This document shows positions 6,481 to 52,774 of a DNA stretch of 64,000 bases, one piece after another (positions within the stretch are counted from its first letter, which is position 1; each line of letters begins with the position of its first letter). The stretch is from Ulota crispa. Taxonomy: Eukaryota > Streptophyta > Bryopsida > Orthotrichales > Orthotrichaceae. The position numbers were made by a program, and so were the translations under genes. Under the pieces are notes generated by a model. That model made no database searches and was not told where the DNA came from. It worked only from the letters and a program-made list of their open reading frames with translations. The stretch is taken from assembly GCA_963920765.1 (NCBI GenBank), contig OY987247.1, positions 12,682,471-12,746,470 on the forward strand, given 5' to 3'.

Positions 6481-6742
6481 AAAGGAGTCCAAAGAACATA
6501 ATTCTACAAACTACTTTTAACCCCTAAAGGATGCAGCCTACCACTGCAACTAGTAGAATACAAGGTTTTTTTTTGTATTTGGAACAGATTCACACCTTTA
6601 TTGCATTTGAGATCAACAAAGAAGTTGGAGAATAGATCAAAGCGGTTCTAATGAGCTGCTTGAGATCCCAAATTAAAATTTCTTATTGATAGCAAATGAC
6701 AATTATACGTCAACGTACATATGGCTCCTTATGGTCGTTTAA

Positions 6743-7860
6743 CCCCTGAGCGCCCATAGTTGTTTTAGGGTTTAGGAGAAAATGGGTAGTTTAACCCCTA
6801 AATCCTTGAGTGTCCCCTTGGGGGACAAATGAGATTTTTTGAAACTTTTTTTGAAAATAGAAAAACACATTAGCTTTTGGGGAGTATAACTTTTATTCCA
6901 ATCTATGCTCAAAAGCAAAAGTTATGCCTAGATAAGCAAAAATTTATGGAGATTGGGCAAAAATAAATTTTTTTACTTTTTTTTTTTTTTTTTTTCGATT
7001 CTTTCTTCTCATAGCTTATAGTTTTTTCTACATTTGAAGCTTTGATTCATTCCATTTGGACGAGTTATGAGAAAATTATGGACAATCTTGTTATTTGGGC
7101 ACCTCAAGCATCTTCTTGAAAAAATAACTTATAAACTTCATGTTGGAATGCAAGTTTAACATTTTTTTAAAGTAAATTGCTAGAAAGGGTGAAGTCTGCT
7201 TTCTAGAACACTTTCACCGTTGGGATTATGGCATTTCAACTCCATTGCAAGGTTATTAACAATTTAAGTTTTTGTGCAGTTTCATACCTTCTTTTACCTA
7301 ATGTTTTTTATAAGGATGAAAATTAAGTAATTTTTTGATTTGATTTTTTCCAAAGATTATCAACTCAATTATCCACCATTGAAAAATAAATCCCAAAACT
7401 TTGTGGTGCAAAAAATTTAAGTTAAAAAAGTTCAAAGTCAAATAATCTAATCACACAAGGTGCAAAAAAATTTGTTTTTGACACTTTAAACGCAAATATC
7501 TTGCAATCTATGCGGTCAAAGTTCTTGAAATTTTGTTTCCACTTTTTTATACTAGTCTAATACAAGATTCTATGGTTAGATATGCAAAAAGACCAATTTT
7601 TTAACTTTTTCCTCTTTGCAATAGAAATGGCAATTTTGAATGTCTTGTGACAAAATAAAGGCCCCAGGGATTTAGGGGTTAATGGCCACCAAAGCTTGGA
7701 AAATTACATCCAAAAAAAGTGACTGTAGGATTTGAAAAAGGACTACCTTCTCTGCTGATGGGGACCAGCCATGACTGTTTTCACTATACAAATTAAGAAA
7801 AAAAATGAGATAAAGTTGTAGGCCCTAATGACAAGATCCTGTCGCTGGGGTGCTTAAGGG
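6743..7860. mobile_element. Group T element, middle of the nest
   Basis: It is inserted in the outer element with TTAA at 6739-6742 and 7861-7864. Left end CCCCTGAGCGCCC, right end GGGGTGCTTAAGGG. It belongs with the copies at 8308-8535 and 38915-39132 (shared GGAGAAAATGG and TAATGGCCACCA). It is interrupted at its own internal TTAA. Confidence 0.8.
6795..7678. mobile_element. Group T element, innermost, 884 bp
   Basis: TTAA flanks at 6791-6794 and 7679-7682; ends CCCCTAAATCC and GGATTTAGGGG. The uninterrupted sisters read GGTTTAATGGCCACCA at this point, so their single TTAA is the empty target and here it is duplicated. The interior is AT-rich with no long frame, so it is non-autonomous. 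Confidence 0.85.
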
Positions 7861-7878
7861 TTAAGGGTTAAGAATTAA

Positions 7879-8104
7879 CCCTTAAATGCCTACATGGCAT
7901 AGTATATACGTTGACATATAATTGTCAGTTGCTACTAATAAAAAATTTTAATTTGGGATCTCAAGTAGCTCACTAGAATCACATTGGTCTATTCTCCAAC
8001 TTCTTTATTGGTCTCAAATGTAATAGAGGTGTGGATCCATTTCAAATACAAGAAAAATACGCCGTATTGTACTGGCAGCAAAGGGCCTTCCCGTTGTTCA
8101 AGGG
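7879..8104. mobile_element. Group T MITE, 226 bp, reverse orientation
   Basis: TTAA at 7875-7878 and 8105-8108; left end CCCTTAAATGCC, right end CAAGGG. It is the reverse complement of the family at 6521 and 52545 (TATATACGTTGACA, GGGATCTCAAGTAGCTCACT). It lies 7 bp from the nest. Confidence 0.8.
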
Positions 8105-8307
8105 TTAAAGAACGTCATTTTGTAAACTGCTATCTCTTGCAAATTGTCAAATTAAAGTAACGATCTAGCTGTCAATATCCAGAAATAATGGAGTGAGTAC
8201 TATTTAAAATTGGAACACTTACATACCATTATCAACTTCATCAATTGTCAGAACCATTTGTAGTCTTCTAGAATAATAAATATATTTCTAATCTTATCAA
8301 GTGTTAA

Positions 8308-10992: not shown

Positions 10993-29709
<18,717 letters not shown>

Positions 29710-30380: not shown

Positions 30381-30825
30381 TAAACCACGGAATTCCTTTA
30401 TTGCACTTTCTAAGCAAACATTAGATATTCTGTGTTAAGGTTGTAACTAAGCTAAAGCACTGTCTTTGTGTGGTGTTCAAAACCAGTTTTCTAAGTTCAA
30501 AAAGTGGCTTTTCAAAACTGACCTAAATATAGTAGGATCACAAATTTAAAATTTACATTGGTAAACAACTGCAAAACATTTAGAGACATGTCCAAAATTA
30601 AAAAGTATGAAAGACTTCAAGCAAAACATTGGAAATCTCCAATCCTGAATAATATAAAGAGCTTATATTTACATGAATAACTCATAAGTAGATAAATGTG
30701 TCATTAAAGTTGTACAAATGATTTCTATCCAAAAAATACAAGCATGTGGCTTCACCATAAAATTAAAAAATTATCACCATTATACGACTTCCTAAAAAGG
30801 CTACTTGCCATTGTGAGCCTATCAG

Positions 30826-31060
30826 AAGCTTCAAAGTAGTAACAAAAAAGCAATACCAGCCCTGTAGTCCACCAGCATTTAAATTTCTAGCAATTCTTTT
30901 TGCCAAACCTTAATTACCTCAATTTCCAAAATCTTACCACAATTTGTGATTGGCTACCATGACATGAGAAAAATTGGAGGAAAAAATGGATGAAATAGCC
31001 AAATATCTCTTCAAGCAAACACCAAGTTTGCCAAAATTTGGATGAAAGTTACTAATGTTA
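30826..31060. repeat. Dispersed repeat, upstream copy
   Basis: ACTTCAAAGTAGTAACAAAA and the following CTGTAGTCCACCA recur near 36677-36730, and in weaker form near 63012-63070. The next 170 bp (TTTGCCAAA, AATCTTACC, GGATGAAA) resemble 31800-31980 and 38580-38740. Confidence 0.5.
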
Positions 31061-32617: not shown

Positions 32618-33004
32618 ATGGAGACCTTCGTCATTGTGATTGCCATCTGTATGGCGGTGATAATTAGTATCATGATTCTTTTAATTGTTGCAAGACTCTG
32701 CGGATGCGGCAGCCCGTTGAGTTATCCGAGACGACGACGATTTGCAGCAGGCGGTCTGGAGGGAGGGGTAATGGGAGCTGGGGTTGGCATGACCGGAGGA
32801 ATGTATGGCGGAGGTGCAGCTGGTGTGAATGGTTTTGGCGGAGGAGCTGGTAATGCAGGCGGTTGGATTGGTGGTGGTTGGGGTGGAGGTGGAGGCGATG
32901 TCGGCGGTGGTGCTGGGTGTGGTGGAGGTGGTGGTGGAGGAATGGGTGGAGGAATGGGTGGAGGAATGGGAGGTGGAATGGGAGGTGGAGGGGCTGGTTG
33001 TTAA
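32618..33004 (+). CDS. Small membrane-anchored glycine-rich protein, copy 1
   Basis: 128 aa, no intron. Residues 3-27 form one hydrophobic membrane segment, followed by RLCGCGSPLSY and a basic patch (RRRR), then a Gly-rich tail with GGGM repeats, ending in GC. The cysteines next to the membrane could be acylated; that is inference. Start chosen because the membrane segment begins at it and the same ATG context (GTGAACAATGG) is kept in all three copies. The stop is TGT TAA, so the stop lies in a TTAA. I do not recognise the family. It differs from classical glycine-rich wall proteins by its N-terminal anchor. Promoter and leader are conserved with copies at 37144 and 39649, which supports a real gene. 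Confidence 0.75.
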   Translation: METFVIVIAICMAVIISIMILLIVARLCGCGSPLSYPRRRRFAAGGLEGGVMGAGVGMTGGMYGGGAAGVNGFGGGAGNAGGWIGGGWGGGGGDVGGGAGCGGGGGGGMGGGMGGGMGGGMGGGGAGC

Positions 33005-33061
33005 GCAGATAACAATTGGTTGGTCATGTAATCCTCTTTCATGTACTCACACATTGTAGGA

Positions 33062-33334
33062 AATGTCATATTTGTTAATTTGGGAAGAAACACCCGTTTT
33101 GGGAATAAATTAGGTTACACGTGATCATCTTAAATCAAGCTCTAGGTTTTAGCAGCATTTTTTTGGTATAGGTGTCTTCATTTGAGATGAGGAATTTGCA
33201 AGGGACAAAATCTCAATGGCTCAAACTAAATCTAATACCTTCAAATCTGACATTTAAAATGATTTAAGGAAAAACGCTGGATTTAAGGTGAAGTACAACT
33301 CGGGAATTTGGTTTCCCAATTTAAATATGGCATT
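33062..33334. mobile_element. Group A MITE, 273 bp
   Basis: Ends AATGTCATATTTGTTAATTT and AAATATGGCATT, near the 3' end of glycine-rich gene 1. Flanks AGGA and AGCA (3 of 4 match). Internal blocks (GCTCTAGGTTT, GAGGAATTTGCAAG) are shared with 34408, 38240, 44818, 49106 and 50768. Confidence 0.8.
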
Positions 33335-36604: not shown

Positions 36605-36719
36605 TGCCTCCCTGTGGTCAGGACCTTGTCCGAGAGAAAAGAAAAACAGAAAACAATGTGGTTGTGTCTGCTTGCCAGAAACTTCAAAGTAGTAACAAAA
36701 AAGCATTATTTACCAGTCC

Positions 36720-36905
36720 TTCAGTCCACCATGTCTGGTCATAACCGGCGGGATCAACACACACGAACCTCCAGTCAACGCAGACTCCACAGCATCGACG
36801 GCTCGACTTGCTGGAACAAACAACGGTCTTTCAGCCAACCTTGTGCTCAAATTAAACCGTGGGCGTGACGACCATCTCTGTCGATGCTGCTGCAATTCCA
36901 TAAGC
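36720..36905 (+). promoter_or_regulatory. Promoter of glycine-rich gene 2, TATA degraded
   Basis: Homologous to 32150-32348. Where copies 1 and 3 have TATAAA, this copy reads CCATAAGCTT, and the G-box position is changed. The leader is conserved through GTGCCCTAAACAAG and TACTGAACTTGAACT. Expression may be weaker; that is inference. Confidence 0.55.
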
Positions 36906-37143: not shown

Positions 37144-37602
37144 ATGGAGGTCTTCGCCATTGCGATTATCATTGGTATGGTGGTGATAGTTAGTATAATA
37201 AATTTTTTTATAGTTGCTAGACTCTGCGGGTGCGGCAGCCCGTTGAGTTATCGGAGAGGAGGAGTCGATCTGGAGGGAGGGGGAGGGAGACGTGGCGGAG
37301 GTGGAGATGGAGGTGGAGCTCGTGGAGGTGGTTTTGGTGGAGGAGGTGATGATGGAGATGATGGTGGAGGGGTCACTAGTGGAGGCGGTTGGGGTGGTGG
37401 GTTTGGTGGAGGCGATGGAGGCGGAGGTGGTGGTGGGTTTGGTAGAGGTGGAGGTGGTGGTGGGTTTGGTGGAGGTGGTGGTGGGTTTGGTGGAGGTGGA
37501 GGGGGTGGCAATGGGGATGGAGGGGGTGGAGAGGGTGGGGGAGGTGGCGGGGTGGGGGAGGTGGCGGGGTGGGGGAGGTGGGGGAGGTGGAGGGGGAGGT
37601 GA
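37144..37602 (+). CDS. Small membrane-anchored glycine-rich protein, copy 2
   Basis: Paralogue of 32618-33004. The frame gives 152 aa: membrane segment (about 3-26), RLCGCGSPLSY, acidic VDLEGG, then a long GGGF/GGGG tail. The last 15 or so residues leave the glycine pattern (VGEVAGWGRWGRW). In the +1 frame the run continues as Gly-rich and ends ERGGC at a TAA at 37616-37618, the same ending as copy 1. So there is a one-base slip (or a read error) in a G-rich run near 37550. The true stop of the ancestor was the TTAA-embedded one, now the edge of a group T element. Whether the protein is functional is unknown. Confidence 0.6.
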   Translation: MEVFAIAIIIGMVVIVSIINFFIVARLCGCGSPLSYRRGGVDLEGGGGRRGGGGDGGGARGGGFGGGGDDGDDGGGVTSGGGWGGGFGGGDGGGGGGGFGRGGGGGGFGGGGGGFGGGGGGGNGDGGGGEGGGGGGVGEVAGWGRWGRWRGR

Positions 37603-37618
37603 AAGGGGTGGCTGTTAA

Positions 37619-37785
37619 TCCATGAGCGTCTAAGCATGTCATTAGGATCATTACAATACAAAGTATTTTTCCTGTATTTGGAATAGATTTACACTTTTAC
37701 TATATTTGAGATCAATAAAGAAGTTGGAGAATAAATGAAAGTGGTGCACTAGAATCACTTGAGGTCCCAAATTAAAAATTCTCAC
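37619..37785 (+). mobile_element. Group T element inserted at the stop codon of copy 2, truncated
   Basis: It starts directly after TGTTAA (TTAA 37615-37618) with TCCATGAGCGTCTAAG. It then matches the 6521 family in forward orientation (GTATTTGGAATAGATT, AGAAGTTGGAGAATA, GTCCCAAATTAAAA). Similarity stops near 37785, so the right end is lost. Confidence 0.75.
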
Positions 37786-38239
37786 CATTCTACCACTTTC
37801 TAAAATACGATAAAACAAAGGTTGCTTGTGTGAGCTTATGAGAAAAGTCAAGGTACTAGCAACAAAAAAATAACAAAAAAACATTACCAAGCCACTATGA
37901 TAATGGTTATTTTTTTTCCTTTTACAAGGGTAGATCCGTAGAGCCACTTGCACAGCTACACCCAACAATGTAAGCAAATAAGGAAAAATTTGACAAAATT
38001 GGATAGAATTGTTGACATGTAGAGTTGTAGACATTAATCCATTAACTATGCAAATATTAGTATATTTCATCCAAAATGTGTTGAATTTGGTATTGGCTTG
38101 AGGAAGGATTTGGCAATTACATCCATTTTTTTACCGTAAATTTCAATGTTACATTAACAAGTGACCATTTGAGGTAAGATTTAGGCAAATTTTAGATAGA
38201 AAAAAAAAAAAAACCTTGACTTGAGTGAGGGCAGACCAC
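37786..38239. other. Intergenic repeat-derived DNA
   Basis: Partly similar to 30770-31060. No gene is supported. The frame at 37651-38070 on the minus strand has no family features. Confidence 0.35.
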
Positions 38240-38497
38240 AACACCATATTATGTAATTTGGAAAAAAGGAGGGTCCCATTTTGTACTCCACCTTAAACCC
38301 AAAAAGTTACCTTAAATCAGATTTGAAGGTATAAGATTCAGTTTGAGCCACTAAGATTTTTTCCCTCTCAAATTCCTCCTCTTAGGTGAGGGCACGTGTA
38401 CCCAAAAAAAATGTTAGAGCTGAGTTTTAGGTGATTATCGAGAACCTTCAAAACTCCCAAAAAGCACCCTTTTTCCCAGATTACATAAAATGGTGTT
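38240..38497. mobile_element. Group A MITE, 258 bp, reverse orientation
   Basis: Ends AACACCATATTATGTAATTT and ACATAAAATGGTGTT; flanks CCAC and GCAC (3 of 4). The interior is the reverse complement of 34408 and 49106 (AAATTCCTCCTCTTAGGTGA). Confidence 0.8.
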
Positions 38498-38564
38498 GCA
38501 CCCTTTTTTGACCCTTTATGGACCAGAATCACCAAATGTATATGAAGTACATTAGTACACTACA

Positions 38565-38850
38565 AATTGACAAGCAAAGAAATTTTTGGCAAGAATTTGC
38601 CCAAATCTTACCTCAAAAGTCAAAACCCAACTGGTGATCTTAATACTAGAAAAATTCATTGAAAAAATGGATGAAGTTTCCAAATCCCTCACCTAATTTT
38701 CACCAAATTTGCTAGCTTGTGGATGAAAGCTACTAACATTAGTAGCTTTTTTGAATGAATGCGCACACATTGTTGATTCTATCCAACTCTAACCAAATTT
38801 TCCTTTTCTGCTCGCAAGGTGGGGGCAATGGGGTGCGTGTCGCTCTACCA
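38565..38850. repeat. Repeat upstream of glycine-rich copy 3
   Basis: Similar to 31800-32080 upstream of copy 1, including the final TGTCGCTCTACC. Supports segmental duplication of the gene with its 5' flank. Confidence 0.5.
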
Positions 38851-38914
38851 ACGAAAAAATACAAAGAATAAAAGTTAGAATTGACAACCAATCGTGTGGT
38901 CTTGAAAGGGTTAA

Positions 38915-39132
38915 CCCTTGAGCCCCCAGAGTTATTTTTGGATTTAGGAGAAAATGGGTGGTTTAATGGCCACCACAATTTGGAAAATTACATTCAAAAA
39001 AAGTGACCGTAGGATTTGAAAAAATACTATCTTCTTTGTTGATGGGAACTAGCCATGACTGTTTTCACCGTACAAATTAATAAAAAAAAATAAGATAAAG
39101 TCGTGGGCATCATGTTGCTGTGCGCTTAGGGG
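38915..39132. mobile_element. Group T MITE, 218 bp
   Basis: TTAA at 38911-38914 and 39133-39136; ends CCCTTGAGCCCCC and GCGCTTAGGGG. Same family as 8308-8535 (GGAGAAAATGG, TAATGGCCACCACAA, AGCCATGACTGTTTTCAC). Confidence 0.85.
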
Positions 39133-39239
39133 TTAAAGGTACCCCACTCCATGTCACCCTTGTACCACCCTACCCTAATTCTAGTACAAAATACTAGCAT
39201 GACTTCGACACCTATTTTCAAATTTTCCAGAGGAAGTAT

Positions 39240-39420
39240 ACTTCCTCTGGGGCGCTCAAGGGATATACACCTCCGAGGGTCAACACACGCGAGTCTGAAG
39301 TCATGCCGACTCTCCCGAGATTCTCCGGGCTCGACGACTTGCCGGAACCACACTCGCTCAGCCGACCCTGACCTTGACGCGTGGACTTCATGTCCATTTC
39401 TGCTGCTTCAGTTCTATAAA
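39240..39420 (+). promoter_or_regulatory. Promoter of glycine-rich copy 3
   Basis: Homologous to 32150-32348 and 36720-36905, with TATAAA kept at 39415-39420, 234 bp before the ATG. The G-box position reads CACGCG. Confidence 0.6.
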
Positions 39421-39648
39421 ACTTCAAAGCTTGTCTGCAGGAGGTTATTCACAACAGCCTGCTTGCTTGCAACCCCTCTGGTGCTATGAACAAGCTCTGG
39501 CGTACTGAACTTGAACTCGACGAAGACTGTGCTTTGAAACAGGTGTAGAATTTGAAGTATGCATTAGTTTTGTGCAATTCTACAAGTATCTGTCTAACTG
39601 CTGCTGTGTGAAGTGTGAACGTCGTGAAGTTCGACCGTGCGTGAACAA

Positions 39649-39904
39649 TGGACGGGTCCATGGATCCCTTCGTCACTGCAATTGTCATCATGGCGGTGTT
39701 AATATTTAGTATCACAATTCTTTTGGTGCTGGCTAGGCTCGTCTGGTGGTTTAATCGTATGGAAGAGAGGAAATTGGAGCTGGCGGCCTGGAGGGAGGGG
39801 GCGGTGAGGCTGGTATGACCGGAGAGGGATTTGGCGGAGGTGGAGCTCGTGCAAATGGTTTTGGTGGAGGAGGTGATTGTGGAGGTGGAGGAGGCAGGTG
39901 TTAC
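39649..39904 (+). pseudogene. Glycine-rich copy 3, frameshifted
   Basis: The leader and GTGAACAATGG start are conserved. The N-terminus keeps the membrane segment, but the RLCGCGSPLSY block is replaced by LVWWFNRMEERK. The first frame hits TGA near 39820. The Gly-rich part survives in another frame (GGLEGGGGEAGMTG, GGGGARANGFGGGG, ending GGRC). So at least one frameshift separates the two halves. The ancestral stop TGTTAA now reads TGTTAC at 39899-39904, next to a group T insertion. Confidence 0.8.
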
Positions 39905-40127
39905 CTTTTAAACCTTAACTTAGTACTGTATATACGTTGTTGTAGAATTTGTATTTGTTACCAACAAGAAATATTAATTTGAGATATTAAATAGCTCACT
40001 AGAATTGCATGGATCTATTCTCAAACTTCTTTGTTGATTGGGTGGCAAAGGTGTGAATCCATTCTAAATACAAGAAAAAACACCTTGTGTTGTACTGGTT
40101 CCATTGGCATGTTCACACATAGAAGGG
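39905..40127 (-). mobile_element. Group T MITE at the stop-codon site of copy 3, 223 bp
   Basis: Left flank TTAC (39901-39904, decayed TTAA inside the old TGT TAA), right flank TTAA at 40128-40131. It aligns without gaps over its first 35 bp to 7879 (TATATACGTTG at the same offset) and ends GAAGGG. The orientation is opposite to the element at copy 2. Confidence 0.8.
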
Positions 40128-40135
40128 TTAAAGTC

Positions 40136-40526: not shown

Positions 40527-40639
40527 ATTACAGAGTTAAACATCTCCATAGCATAGTAGATAAGTTGATGTAGAATTGGCATATATCTTACCATGAAGAG
40601 GATTAAATTTGGGATCTCAAATAGCTCACTAGAATCACA

Positions 40640-41226
40640 AATGCAATATTTGTTAATTTGGGAGAAATCCTCAATTTTAGGACTTTTGAATTTTTCATTC
40701 TTAAGAATTTTGAGATGATTTATAGTGAATTTTTTGATGATTTCTTTGAGAATTTACATCAATGATGAAATATCTTGAAAGAATTATAAAAAAACTCACT
40801 TTAAATCACCAAATTGTTTACACAAAAAACATAGTATTCATTAAATTGGGAAAACACGATTCCCAAGTTGTATTTCACTTGAAACCAAAAAAGTCACCTT
40901 AAACCCATTTGAGAGGTTTAAGGTGATCACCTTCAAGGCTTCAATCTAGTTAATGAACTTTCTGTCTAAAATTTCAAAAGTATTGTTATTTTGTGAAACA
41001 AATAGGTCTTGTTCTTGGCTTCTTAGGTAATAAAGAGCGTATTTCTAAAAGATACATATCTCATTTAATTAGAAAATAGTCAAGTGCACACTTAACATAA
41101 AAGGGCTAGAATTCCCAAAATGTTCACAAGTTCCAATTTAATGAATGTGACGTTAAAACGAAAAATTTCAGCATCCCAAAATTAGTTTTGAGAAATTTTT
41201 TTTCCCAAATTAACCAAATTAGTGTG
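40640..41226. mobile_element. Group A MITE, outer of a nested pair
   Basis: Ends AATGCAATATTTGTTAATTT and AAATTAACCAAATTAGTGT; inserted in the group T element above. Flanks are too diverged to read the duplication. It contains another group A element at 40828. Confidence 0.65.
40828..41154. mobile_element. Group A MITE, inner
   Basis: Ends AACATAGTATTCATTAAATT and AATTTAATGAATGTGACGTT, with AAAA at 40824-40827 and 41155-41158 as 4-bp duplication. Confidence 0.8.
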
Positions 41227-41530
41227 ATGCTGATTTATATTCCAACTATCTCACATGCAATATTGGTGTGAATCTAATCCAAATACAAGTAAAATACCTT
41301 GTATTGTATTGATCACAATGGCACACTCCTCATTCCCGTGGGATGATTCAATTGCCAAAATATTGACACTCTCTAACAACGACTGGTGTAGATGTCCGGC
41401 ATAGATTTCTTAGGTACCTGCGTTTAGAAGGGTAAACTGCAAATGCTACCAAATTTCATCAATACAACAAAAATTCATGTGTGATGTATTATTGTGGCGT
41501 TTAGAGTAGAGGACTTTGATGTTTTATTAA

Positions 41531-42465
41531 CCCTTAAGTGACCGTCACCTATTTGGGGGCACCTCAAATTTTCATTTTATGGTTTGCAAAACACATTCAA
41601 AGATAAAATTTGTGGTTCTAAAATTAAAGCAGATCAGACATATCAAAGCTATAAACTTTGGCAACACAAATATATATAAAAAGTTTTGATTTATCAAAAC
41701 AATTCCACGTGAAGATTGTGAGAAGCTTGATGATCCAAAAAAATTTGTTGTGCAAAAACATGAGACACTCTAACTAATTAGTGTCAATCGTGCAATTGAA
41801 ACTTTTGATAGTGGTGAAATTTGTAAAGGCTATTGCCCCATTCTAGGTTACTGCACTTCTAAAAAAAATACAAAATTTGAGTCAGTTTGTGCATTTCACG
41901 GCATGATTTGTGAAATTAAGCATTGGAAGAATACAAATGTGGTCACACATATATGATTGAATACATCATGCATGGAACATGTTTCCACAAAATCCAATTG
42001 GTCAATGTCATTTACATTGGGTGTCATTTGAGGTACAAGGTCCCACATTTAGCATTGCAAACCTTTGGAGCCTAAGATTTCATGGAACACTCAATGTTGT
42101 AGCTGAAATACGCCACAAGTAGAACTTTTAAATAAACCATGCATCTTTTGCACAACTACTAGAGAGCTAGCACCAGATACTTTGGGTGCAATATGTGGGC
42201 TTTGGGACCATGTAACGATTGCATTGAATTAGTATTTCATTTGTTATACCCGTATGAGATTCTCAGCTTCATATGTAAAACACGCATAGCTACCATGTTT
42301 CTTTATGCCTTGCTTTGAAATTTGTTCCAATAGGAACACAAGTTGATAACTTGATGCTCCATCTCCATTACATTCTGTGTTTTTGCAAATGAAATAGATC
42401 AAAGATGACAAGAGCCACAGAGTACCAAAATCCACCCAAAAGTGGTCAATTGGTCACTTAAAGGG
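41531..42465. mobile_element. Group T element, 935 bp
   Basis: TTAA at 41527-41530 and 42466-42469; ends CCCTTAAGTGACC and GGTCACTTAAAGGG. No long frame, so non-autonomous. Confidence 0.8.
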
Positions 42466-42611
42466 TTAAGGTGATCTTGAGAAAGGGCTTAAGTTATAAA
42501 CAATGATTCAAACTTGACCTTCCTCCAAAGTCCAGATTCTCCACATAACTACCTTTGGCAACAATGGGAACTTGAGAAGGTCTCTTCTACTCTCTCTGTA
42601 GAAACACGCAA

Positions 42612-42870
42612 AACGCCATATTAGGTAAATTGAGAAAAACAAAGGTACCATTTTGTACTCCACATTAATCCAAAATAATCACCTCAAACCAGATTCAAAA
42701 GTATCAAATTTAGTTTGAGCTGGCACTAAAATTTTTTCCCTCACAAATTCCTCCTCTCAAGTGAGGACATGAGTACCCAAAAAAATGTTGGAACTCGATT
42801 TGGGGTGATCACCCCAAACCTTTAGAAATCTCAAAATGAACATTTTGACCCATAATTATTACTTAATATC
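42612..42870. mobile_element. Group A MITE, right end decayed
   Basis: Left end AACGCCATATTAGGTAAATT; the interior matches 38240 and 50768 (CAAATTCCTCCTCTCAAGTG). The right end no longer matches the terminal repeat. Confidence 0.65.
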
Positions 42871-44047
42871 TCGATGCAGACAACACAAGCCAACATTGAA
42901 GTAGGAGAGTCGGTAGCATGAATTGCAAAGTTGAGTTTTTAGGAGTGCCTAGGTATCCTGAGGAGAGATCTTCGTCTCTATTAAATTTTCTATTGATGCC
43001 CTTTAAGTATCTCCCAGAGAGAGAGTGCAAACTTTAAGTCCTCAACTTGATCTCAGAATTCACCTTTTCATGCAGGCTGTCATATTCAAGAGGGCCTGTT
43101 CAAATAACGTAGTGGAGGACTGGTGTATACCGGAGGGTCGGAGGGAGTTTATTAGATTGGTTTTGAATGTCAAAGATTGTTTTGATTTTTACAGAAATTC
43201 TCTGTGAAAAACGTGGCTTATATCCCGTTGAGGTGTTGAACACAAACTTCAACAACTACAGTGAATGCCTTGAAAGTGCAATGGACAAATTATATTCTAT
43301 TGTTGAAGGCCGTTGCCTGTAACTATAGCAAATGCTCACCAAAATTCATTAGAATCCTTTTCATCTTTAACATAATGAGGGGCTTCAGAAGCAAATTCAC
43401 TCATAGGAGTCCCACTGTAGGTACACCACTCTAGTAAACGTAGAATTTTATATCATTGTCCAGACCCAAATTCACCGTCATTGGTGATCAACGGATTATT
43501 GTACGCCATATCTTCAGCTTGAGGAAGATTAGCTTCACATCAAGAGCATTCCCCATAATGTTTGAACATAGTAAAAGGTTTTGGATAGAATGCCATCCTA
43601 CAAATCCCAGCATTATCTGTGTAAATCATCAATATATATGTTATTATCTTAAATCCTATCCATTGCTTAAATGCACTTGTACAGTTGTAAATGTCTAGCC
43701 GAAATTCTGTATTTACGTTGGTCAACCATTGTTATGTATAGGAGGCTTCCTACATATATAGTAGGCCAAACCTTGAGCTAATAGGAGTTCTTGGTAGATG
43801 TGGAAGGGGGCTGAGTCGATTTTGTTTTGGCATCAAAGACAAGATTAGACAACCCATTACCCAAAAAAAGTGAAAAATTTCATTTTATAAGCTTTGTTCC
43901 AATTTAATGAATATTGTGTTCAAGGAGTTTATAATGTAATCTAAGTGACAACAAATGTATCCCCATAATTGAGGGCTCATTTACATAAAAAGGAAAAATA
44001 TAACCTTCAAGGAGTGAGTGCGGAACAAAATGGTCCCACCCTCCTTG
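42871..44047. other. Intergenic DNA
   Basis: No supported gene. A solitary group A right end (AATTTAATGAATATTGTGTT) lies at 43901-43920 with no partner found. Confidence 0.4.
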
Positions 44048-52540: not shown

Positions 52541-52544
52541 TTAA

Positions 52545-52770
52545 CCTTTGAATGTCTAAGTGTGCCATTACTACCAGTACAATACGAGGTAATTTTTTTG
52601 TATTTGGAATAAATTCACATCTTTATTACATTTGAGATAAACAAAGTAGTTGGAGAGTATATCAAAGCCATTGTAGTGAGCTACTAGAGATCCCAAATTA
52701 AAACTTATTATTGGTAGAAAATACCAATTATATAGTAGTATATATACTATGTCCTATGGTCATTTAAGGG
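52545..52770 (+). mobile_element. Group T MITE, 226 bp, intact reference
   Basis: TTAA at 52541-52544 and 52771-52774. Same orientation as 6521. Its uninterrupted right end (ATGGTCATTTAAGGG then TTAA) is the empty-site match for the nest at 6739-7867. Confidence 0.8.
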
Positions 52771-52774
52771 TTAA

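Follow-up and report, generated by a model that had tools for sequence, protein, structure and literature searches.

Glycine-rich genes and the TTAA at their 3' ends

The window analysed here, a stretch of 64,000 nucleotides from the moss Ulota crispa (G000:C6:12682471-12746470, part of a 275-Mb genome), contains three paralogous glycine-rich genes (copies 1 to 3), two of which are interrupted at a homologous site by members of a TTAA-flanked family of miniature inverted-repeat transposable elements (MITEs), hereinafter referred to as T. The coordinates of the genes and elements are given in Table 1. A whole-genome DNA search with the promoter and N-terminal part of copy 1 as the query found four places, all on C6, comprising copies 1 to 3 and a new paralogue, copy 4 (L046:1274-1600), located about 1.3 kb beyond the window end. 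An earlier note on this DNA had counted three paralogues, two of them with an insert; copies 1 to 3 proved to be as described there, but the family has a fourth, empty copy outside the window. A protein search of the genome recovered copies 1, 2, and 4 (three of the four paralogues), and a Pfam scan of these three found no Pfam family. All four paralogues have a hydrophobic N-terminus followed by a glycine-rich body, and a TGT (Cys) codon directly precedes the stop position in each of them, in a shifted frame in copies 2 and 3.

Copy 1 ends in frame with TGT TAA and carries no insert, as had been noted, and copy 4 likewise ends in an intact TGT TAA; only these two copies end in this way. The uninterrupted TGTTAAGYAGATRACAAT common to copies 1 and 4 represents the empty site, which is hence retained by two members of the family. 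Copies 2 and 3 part from the copy 1/4 alignment exactly at TGTTAA (37613-37618) and TGTTAC (39899-39904), respectively. For the junctions, a T consensus of 234 bp (TTAACCCCTAAAGGTCTGAGCG...GGTCATTTAAGGGTTAA) was used, which was built from 44 copies (41 from 36 fetched loci and three from the window), with the elements of copies 2 and 3 left out. Consensus position 1 falls exactly on 37615 in copy 2, where T is in forward orientation, and on 40131 in copy 3, where T is in reverse orientation with a TTAA on its far side. Both arrangements agree with the earlier note, with the qualification that T has diverged at its gene-side end in copy 3: similarity to T by BLAST stops there at 39928, corresponding to consensus position 207 of 234, and the last 27 consensus positions run without gaps to the TTAC at 39901-39904 with 12 of 27 letters matching, nine of them within the outermost 12 (counted by eye). 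Similarity to the element thus begins at the stop position cleanly in copy 2 and, by ungapped extension, acceptably in copy 3. Regarding the target duplication, copies 1 and 4 have a single TTAA, copy 3 has a pair of which one member now reads TTAC, and copy 2 has lost the far TTAA.

In the paralogue alignment, 23 columns group copies 1 and 2 against copies 3 and 4, compared with 7 and 5 for the alternative groupings, so that each pair contains one filled and one empty copy. The downstream flank of copy 3 matches that of copy 4 in three pieces, from 41339 onward, with a different TTAACCC-ended element (41527-42469) between the first two; the ancestral flank of copy 1 resumes near 33331.

The two inserted elements, which lie in opposite orientations, show 82.1% (138/168, copy 2) and 79.8% (182/228, copy 3) identity to the consensus, and all 44 sampled T copies are nearer to it (at least 82.9%, median 91%), with the caveat that these copies were chosen by similarity and themselves built the consensus; the values fit old insertions of both elements. 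Their identity to each other is 73.8%, and none of the 46 rows is less similar to the T of copy 2 than that of copy 3. In a tree of T copies, which is weakly supported (one starred branch of 44), the T of copy 3 falls into a three-row group with the second T of its neighbourhood and one from C3 (Shimodaira-Hasegawa-like approximate likelihood ratio test, SH-aLRT, 89), and the T of copy 2 stands beside a copy from C2 (SH-aLRT 85). Taken together, the empty site in two paralogues, the paralogue tree, the opposite orientation, and the distant relationship of the elements make two independent insertions of T at a homologous site a well-supported reading. This had been argued in the earlier note from orientation, and the tree, the orientation, and the element identity likewise speak against an origin of both inserts from one duplication event.

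Table 1. Genes, T copies, and neighbouring repeats in the window.
Feature	Position	Strand	Remarks
Copy 1, reading frame	32618..33004	+	128 amino acids, intact; hydrophobic N-terminus and glycine-rich body; in-frame end TGT TAA
Copy 1, empty site	33001..33018	+	TTAAGCAGATAACAATTG directly after TGT; bases 1-16 have their counterpart in copy 4 from L046:1597
Copy 2, reading frame from ATG	37144..37602	+	152 amino acids; ends at TGA 37600-37602 after a frameshift in a G-rich tract
Copy 2, TTAA	37615..37618	+	Left end of T; TAA not in the frame of the ATG
Copy 2, T element	37615..37782	+	Covers positions 1-168 of the 234-bp consensus; lacks the right end
Copy 3, reading frame from ATG	39648..39818	+	56 amino acids; glycine-rich part in another frame
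Copy 3, T element	39901..40131	-	Gene side reads TTAC, opposite side TTAA (40128-40131); beyond 39928 the gene-side end was placed by extension without gaps
Copy 3, ancestral downstream flank	41339..41530	+	72% identity to the copy 4 flank; continues at 42466-42612 and 42895-42957
Other TTAACCC...GGGTTAA element	41527..42469		Lies within the flank of copy 3; copy 4 has a perfect empty site there, the TTAA at L046:1860
Second, degraded T copy downstream of copy 3	40536..41330	-	Pieces 40546-40634 and 41248-41328; outer bounds approximate
Further T copy	6517..6742	+	
Further T copy	7875..8108	-	Alignment covers 7875-8084; the outer end was taken from the sequence itself
Further T copy	52541..52774	+	Both TTAA ends present
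Different dispersed repeat	33061..33330		Roughly 60 bp past the stop of copy 1; approximate bounds

Outside the genes themselves, the segment 30823-30874 resembles the promoter region of copy 2 (36676-36731, 84%), and 30760-30858, which overlaps it, resembles 37769-37875 (70%), a segment that starts inside the T of copy 2, where the right half of that element is lost. The gene array may once have been larger, or may have been rearranged around 30760-30874 and 37769-37875.

T elements and piggyBac transposases in the genome

T is short, non-coding, and dispersed in many copies, and at 234 bp it is too small to encode a transposase. The consensus ends are TTAACCCCTAAA and TTAACCCTTAAA, summarised as TTAACCCYTAAA. 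When a shift of up to 6 bp was allowed, TTAA flanked 45 of 51 left ends and 37 of 50 right ends, and both ends in 30 of the 47 hits reaching both; the terminal motif TTAACCY was present at 38 of the 51 left ends and RGGTTAA at 30 of the 50 right ends. In the genome search for T, 40 of 2744 first-look candidates were scored. By its TTAA duplication and CC[C/T]T ends, T is classified as a piggyBac-type MITE. The two pieces of the degraded copy downstream of copy 3 would represent one T copy split by another repeat.

Other elements with similar ends were also found. The element at 41527-42469 shares symmetric CCC...GGG ends with T, and its start matched all 40 scored places (199 first-look candidates), itself included. 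PIF/Harbinger (Tourist-like) MITEs are defined by a 3-bp TWA target duplication. Membership in that group was rejected, with 41527-42469 showing a 4-bp TTAA duplication and symmetric CCC...GGG ends; Harbinger transposases were not searched for. The segments 38911-39135 and 6739-7680 are both bounded by TTAACCC/GGGTTAA, have a common inner sequence, and appear by eye to form another TTAA element family.

The genome contains at least 120 matches to the piggyBac transposase domain (PF13843), with some genes matched in two pieces; 116 of 527 candidates were scored, and 14 control genomes gave no match. Ten of the 120 listed matches lack an internal stop by our own count (examples in L048-L062). 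Within 1.5-kb flanks, a TTAACCCTTC end was found downstream in 3 of 12 transposase loci. When these three loci were extended upstream, a pair of TTAACCCYT ends about 5 kb apart was found to bracket the domain in two of them, with upstream ends matching in 14 and 15 of 16 letters; the third has the downstream end only. T and the two bracketed loci share the outer nine letters (TTAACCCYT) at both ends, and the inner terminal repeat differs.

Domains unrelated to transposition were also recorded. The LEAFY SAM domain (SAM_LFY) is present in the genome, with six matches over the cut-off (G000:C4:16275377 and five others), of which the best has an E value of 1.2e-27 and five are far weaker. DUF4704 and neurobeachin domains were found as well, and the protein at 10993-28736 resembles a land-plant BEACH protein. 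The LEAFY and neurobeachin-type domains are in accordance with a streptophyte genome, probably that of a land plant.

Choice of the insertion site and fate of the stop codon

We consider it highly probable that the pattern reflects parallel insertion of ordinary non-autonomous piggyBac-type MITEs into scarce TTAA, with no special targeting needed. In two separate events, T would have entered, in opposite orientations, the TTAA that the last codon makes with the stop (TGT TAA), and two other members of the small local gene family would have kept the empty site. With the gene body nearly free of TTAA, the stop TTAA is the last, and probably the least harmful, target in the transcribed region, in a neighbourhood that is heavily colonised by TTAACCC-ended elements. 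T was presumably moved by a piggyBac transposase, and selection against insertions elsewhere in the gene may have sharpened the pattern.

TTAA occurs 393 times in the window, less often than the 545 times that base composition would predict. In the transcribed part, with start points chosen by the analyst near the TATA/5' region, three, two, two, and no TTAA precede the stop in copies 1 to 4, respectively; the TTAA at the stop is the last of the gene and, in copy 4, the only one. The shared insertion site would be largely due to this scarcity. In many cases no target other than the stop site was close by, so an effect on the gene is not needed to account for its use. Among the three TTAA sites common to copies 3 and 4 (the stop, L046:1860, and L046:1886), two are occupied in copy 3.

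Several observations weigh against this explanation. The gene-side end of T in copy 3 is diverged (12/27 letters) and reads TTAC, and the T end of copy 2 itself reads TTAATCCAT. The downstream flank of copy 2 was not found in 37780-39200, where the flanks of copies 1, 3, and 4 fitted no better than shuffles, so the far junction of its T is not checkable. No TTAACCCTT end was present within 1.5 kb in 9 of the 12 transposase loci, the search for an autonomous element bearing the complete T terminus was negative, and a BLAST search of T against these 12 loci gave no hit. Moreover, chance alone is not a comfortable account without the scarcity and selection argument: the probability that at least two of four sites are filled, a coincidence chosen after the fact, is 0.1, 0.7, 1.4, and 5.2% at per-site occupancies of 1.3, 3.5, 5, and 10%, respectively.

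The earlier note had taken the site to be the stop codon in copies 2 and 3 and had proposed that the target duplication keeps the stop on the gene side. Both proposals fail for the sequences as assembled, in which neither copy ends at the TTAA codon and the stop codon is not preserved at the insertion. The ATG frame of copy 2 departs from the glycine frame within a G-rich tract that contains a repeated unit of 17 bases, and it reaches TGA (37600-37602) first, the TAA at 37616-37618 lying in another frame. Copy 3 is frameshifted, its glycine-rich frame runs on through TGT TAC into T, where TTAC provides no stop, and this copy is probably a pseudogene.

It is possible, although unlikely, that copy 2 owes its frameshift to an error made in sequencing the G-rich tract and that the TAA is its true stop. 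The location of the shift in that tract with its repeated unit is in accordance with an error, as are the conserved N-terminus of copy 2 and the end of its shifted frame in GERGGC before the stop, comparable to the C-termini GAGC of copy 1 and GGDC of copy 4. However, the shift is present in the assembly, the 17-base duplication alone changes the frame, and an error in copy 2 does not explain the loss of the stop in copy 3. An assembly error of this kind would be compatible with parallel insertion into scarce TTAA; it would rescue the copy 2 half of the stop-preservation idea and make copy 2 a working example of landing at a stop site. The broader proposal that, in a land-plant genome full of piggyBac-type elements, TTAA-poor coding sequences make T-TAA stops a recurrent landing site, at which independent insertions time and again swap the downstream sequence and leave the coding part untouched, appears doubtful.

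A preference of the transposon for gene ends, or for the context of this stop, would make the site a real hot spot. Two hits at one homologous site, of low probability if the sites are exchangeable, would be accounted for in this manner, and a pyrimidine directly precedes the TTAA in 59 of 81 usable sampled T ends; the base before the TTAA in the genes studied here, however, is G rather than the commoner pyrimidine. Open frames upstream of a TTAA-encoded TAA were compared between 82 T ends from 37 sources, a small sample biased toward copies like the query, and 1157 control TTAA from 29 loci (L010-L038), T ends included. Frames of at least 40 codons were found at 8 of the 82 T ends versus 9.9% of the controls. 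Frames of at least 60 codons were found at 5 of 82 T ends (6.1%) versus 3.0% of the controls, with copy 2 itself being one of the five. No clear targeting of stop codons or open frames by T was thus seen in these 82 ends relative to the 1157 control sites, and a hot spot is improbable.

It is very improbable that the insertions were selected as useful, with T providing a new 3' untranslated region or polyadenylation signal and the stop being kept on the gene side. The T of copy 2 does contain two AATAAA (37714 and 37730), and among the 44 sampled T copies any AATAAA occurs in eight and two or more in two. On the other hand, the assembled TAA of copy 2 is out of frame behind an earlier TGA, copy 3, frameshifted and with TTAC in place of TTAA, lacks an AATAAA in the 400 bases from the site, and copies 1 and 4 already possess an AATAAA of their own (33104 and L046:1610, respectively).

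Finally, a single ancestral insertion inherited via gene duplications, with one copy inverted and T excised precisely and without footprint from copies 1 and 4, is extremely improbable and was rejected on the basis of the paralogue tree, which with copies 1 and 2 and copies 3 and 4 as pairs requires an inversion plus two excisions, the opposite orientation, and the element similarity (rank 46 of 46), even though the two filled genes adjoin in the array and precise piggyBac excision restoring a single TTAA, which is possible according to the excerpted text of PMC10905368, means that empty sites alone are no proof of initial absence.

Comparison with known TTAA elements

Within the same genome, the two bracketed piggyBac loci (L060 with L048, and L061 with L053) carry TTAACCCYT at both ends, as T does. 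They differ from T in their length of about 5 kb, in having a transposase domain, which contains internal stops in both, and in the inner repeat. Wuneng and Microuli are MITEs from rice. These two families make TTAA duplications (PMC2872659) and resemble T in this respect and in their miniature size, a likeness drawn by description only. Pokey and the mPok MITEs of Daphnia, as presented in the part of the literature consulted, are similarly a member of the piggyBac superfamily and its MITE derivatives; Pokey has a specific ribosomal DNA site, and no such site was seen for T in the sample.

That plants contain piggyBac is in itself no new finding, to judge from the portions available of a review that lists PiggyBac among plant DNA transposon superfamilies (PMC10794571) and of a paper in which piggyBac is said to have been isolated from plants (PMC10813416). 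A MITE survey covering 207 plant genomes recognises five main superfamilies of plant MITEs (PMC12550479); piggyBac is not among them, and the word 'piggybac' was counted nowhere in that paper. In the literature searched, no work on piggyBac in bryophytes or lycophytes was found, the occurrence in the excerpt of PMC10619864 being 'piggybacking', and no report of such piggyBac abundance in plants was found. Footprint-free excision is shown by no DNA transposon found in plants, according to the accessible part of PMC10905368; piggyBac is valued for such excision, and a native plant lineage is therefore worth study. At this locus, parallel insertion is cleanly documented by paralogues that include empty sites, which suggests that a shortage of targets is enough by itself to concentrate a TTAA element on stop codons. 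The abundance of piggyBac (at least 120 matches) together with many TTAACCC-ended MITEs in a land plant is the more interesting observation and may matter more.

T also resembles the piggyBac/TTAA MITEs of Acropora corals (CMITEs), which are described in the excerpted text of PMC2872659 as short and dispersed, with a TTAA duplication, the CC[C/T]T motif, and tandem copies. The same text describes piggyBac MITEs in corals that share only the CC[C/T]T hallmark with their presumed helpers, and the CMITEs, as T, show little likeness to autonomous elements beyond the ends. In contrast to the CMITEs, which are about 100 bp long (PMC2872659), T measures 234 bp, resides in a land plant, and has two copies at homologous sites of paralogues.

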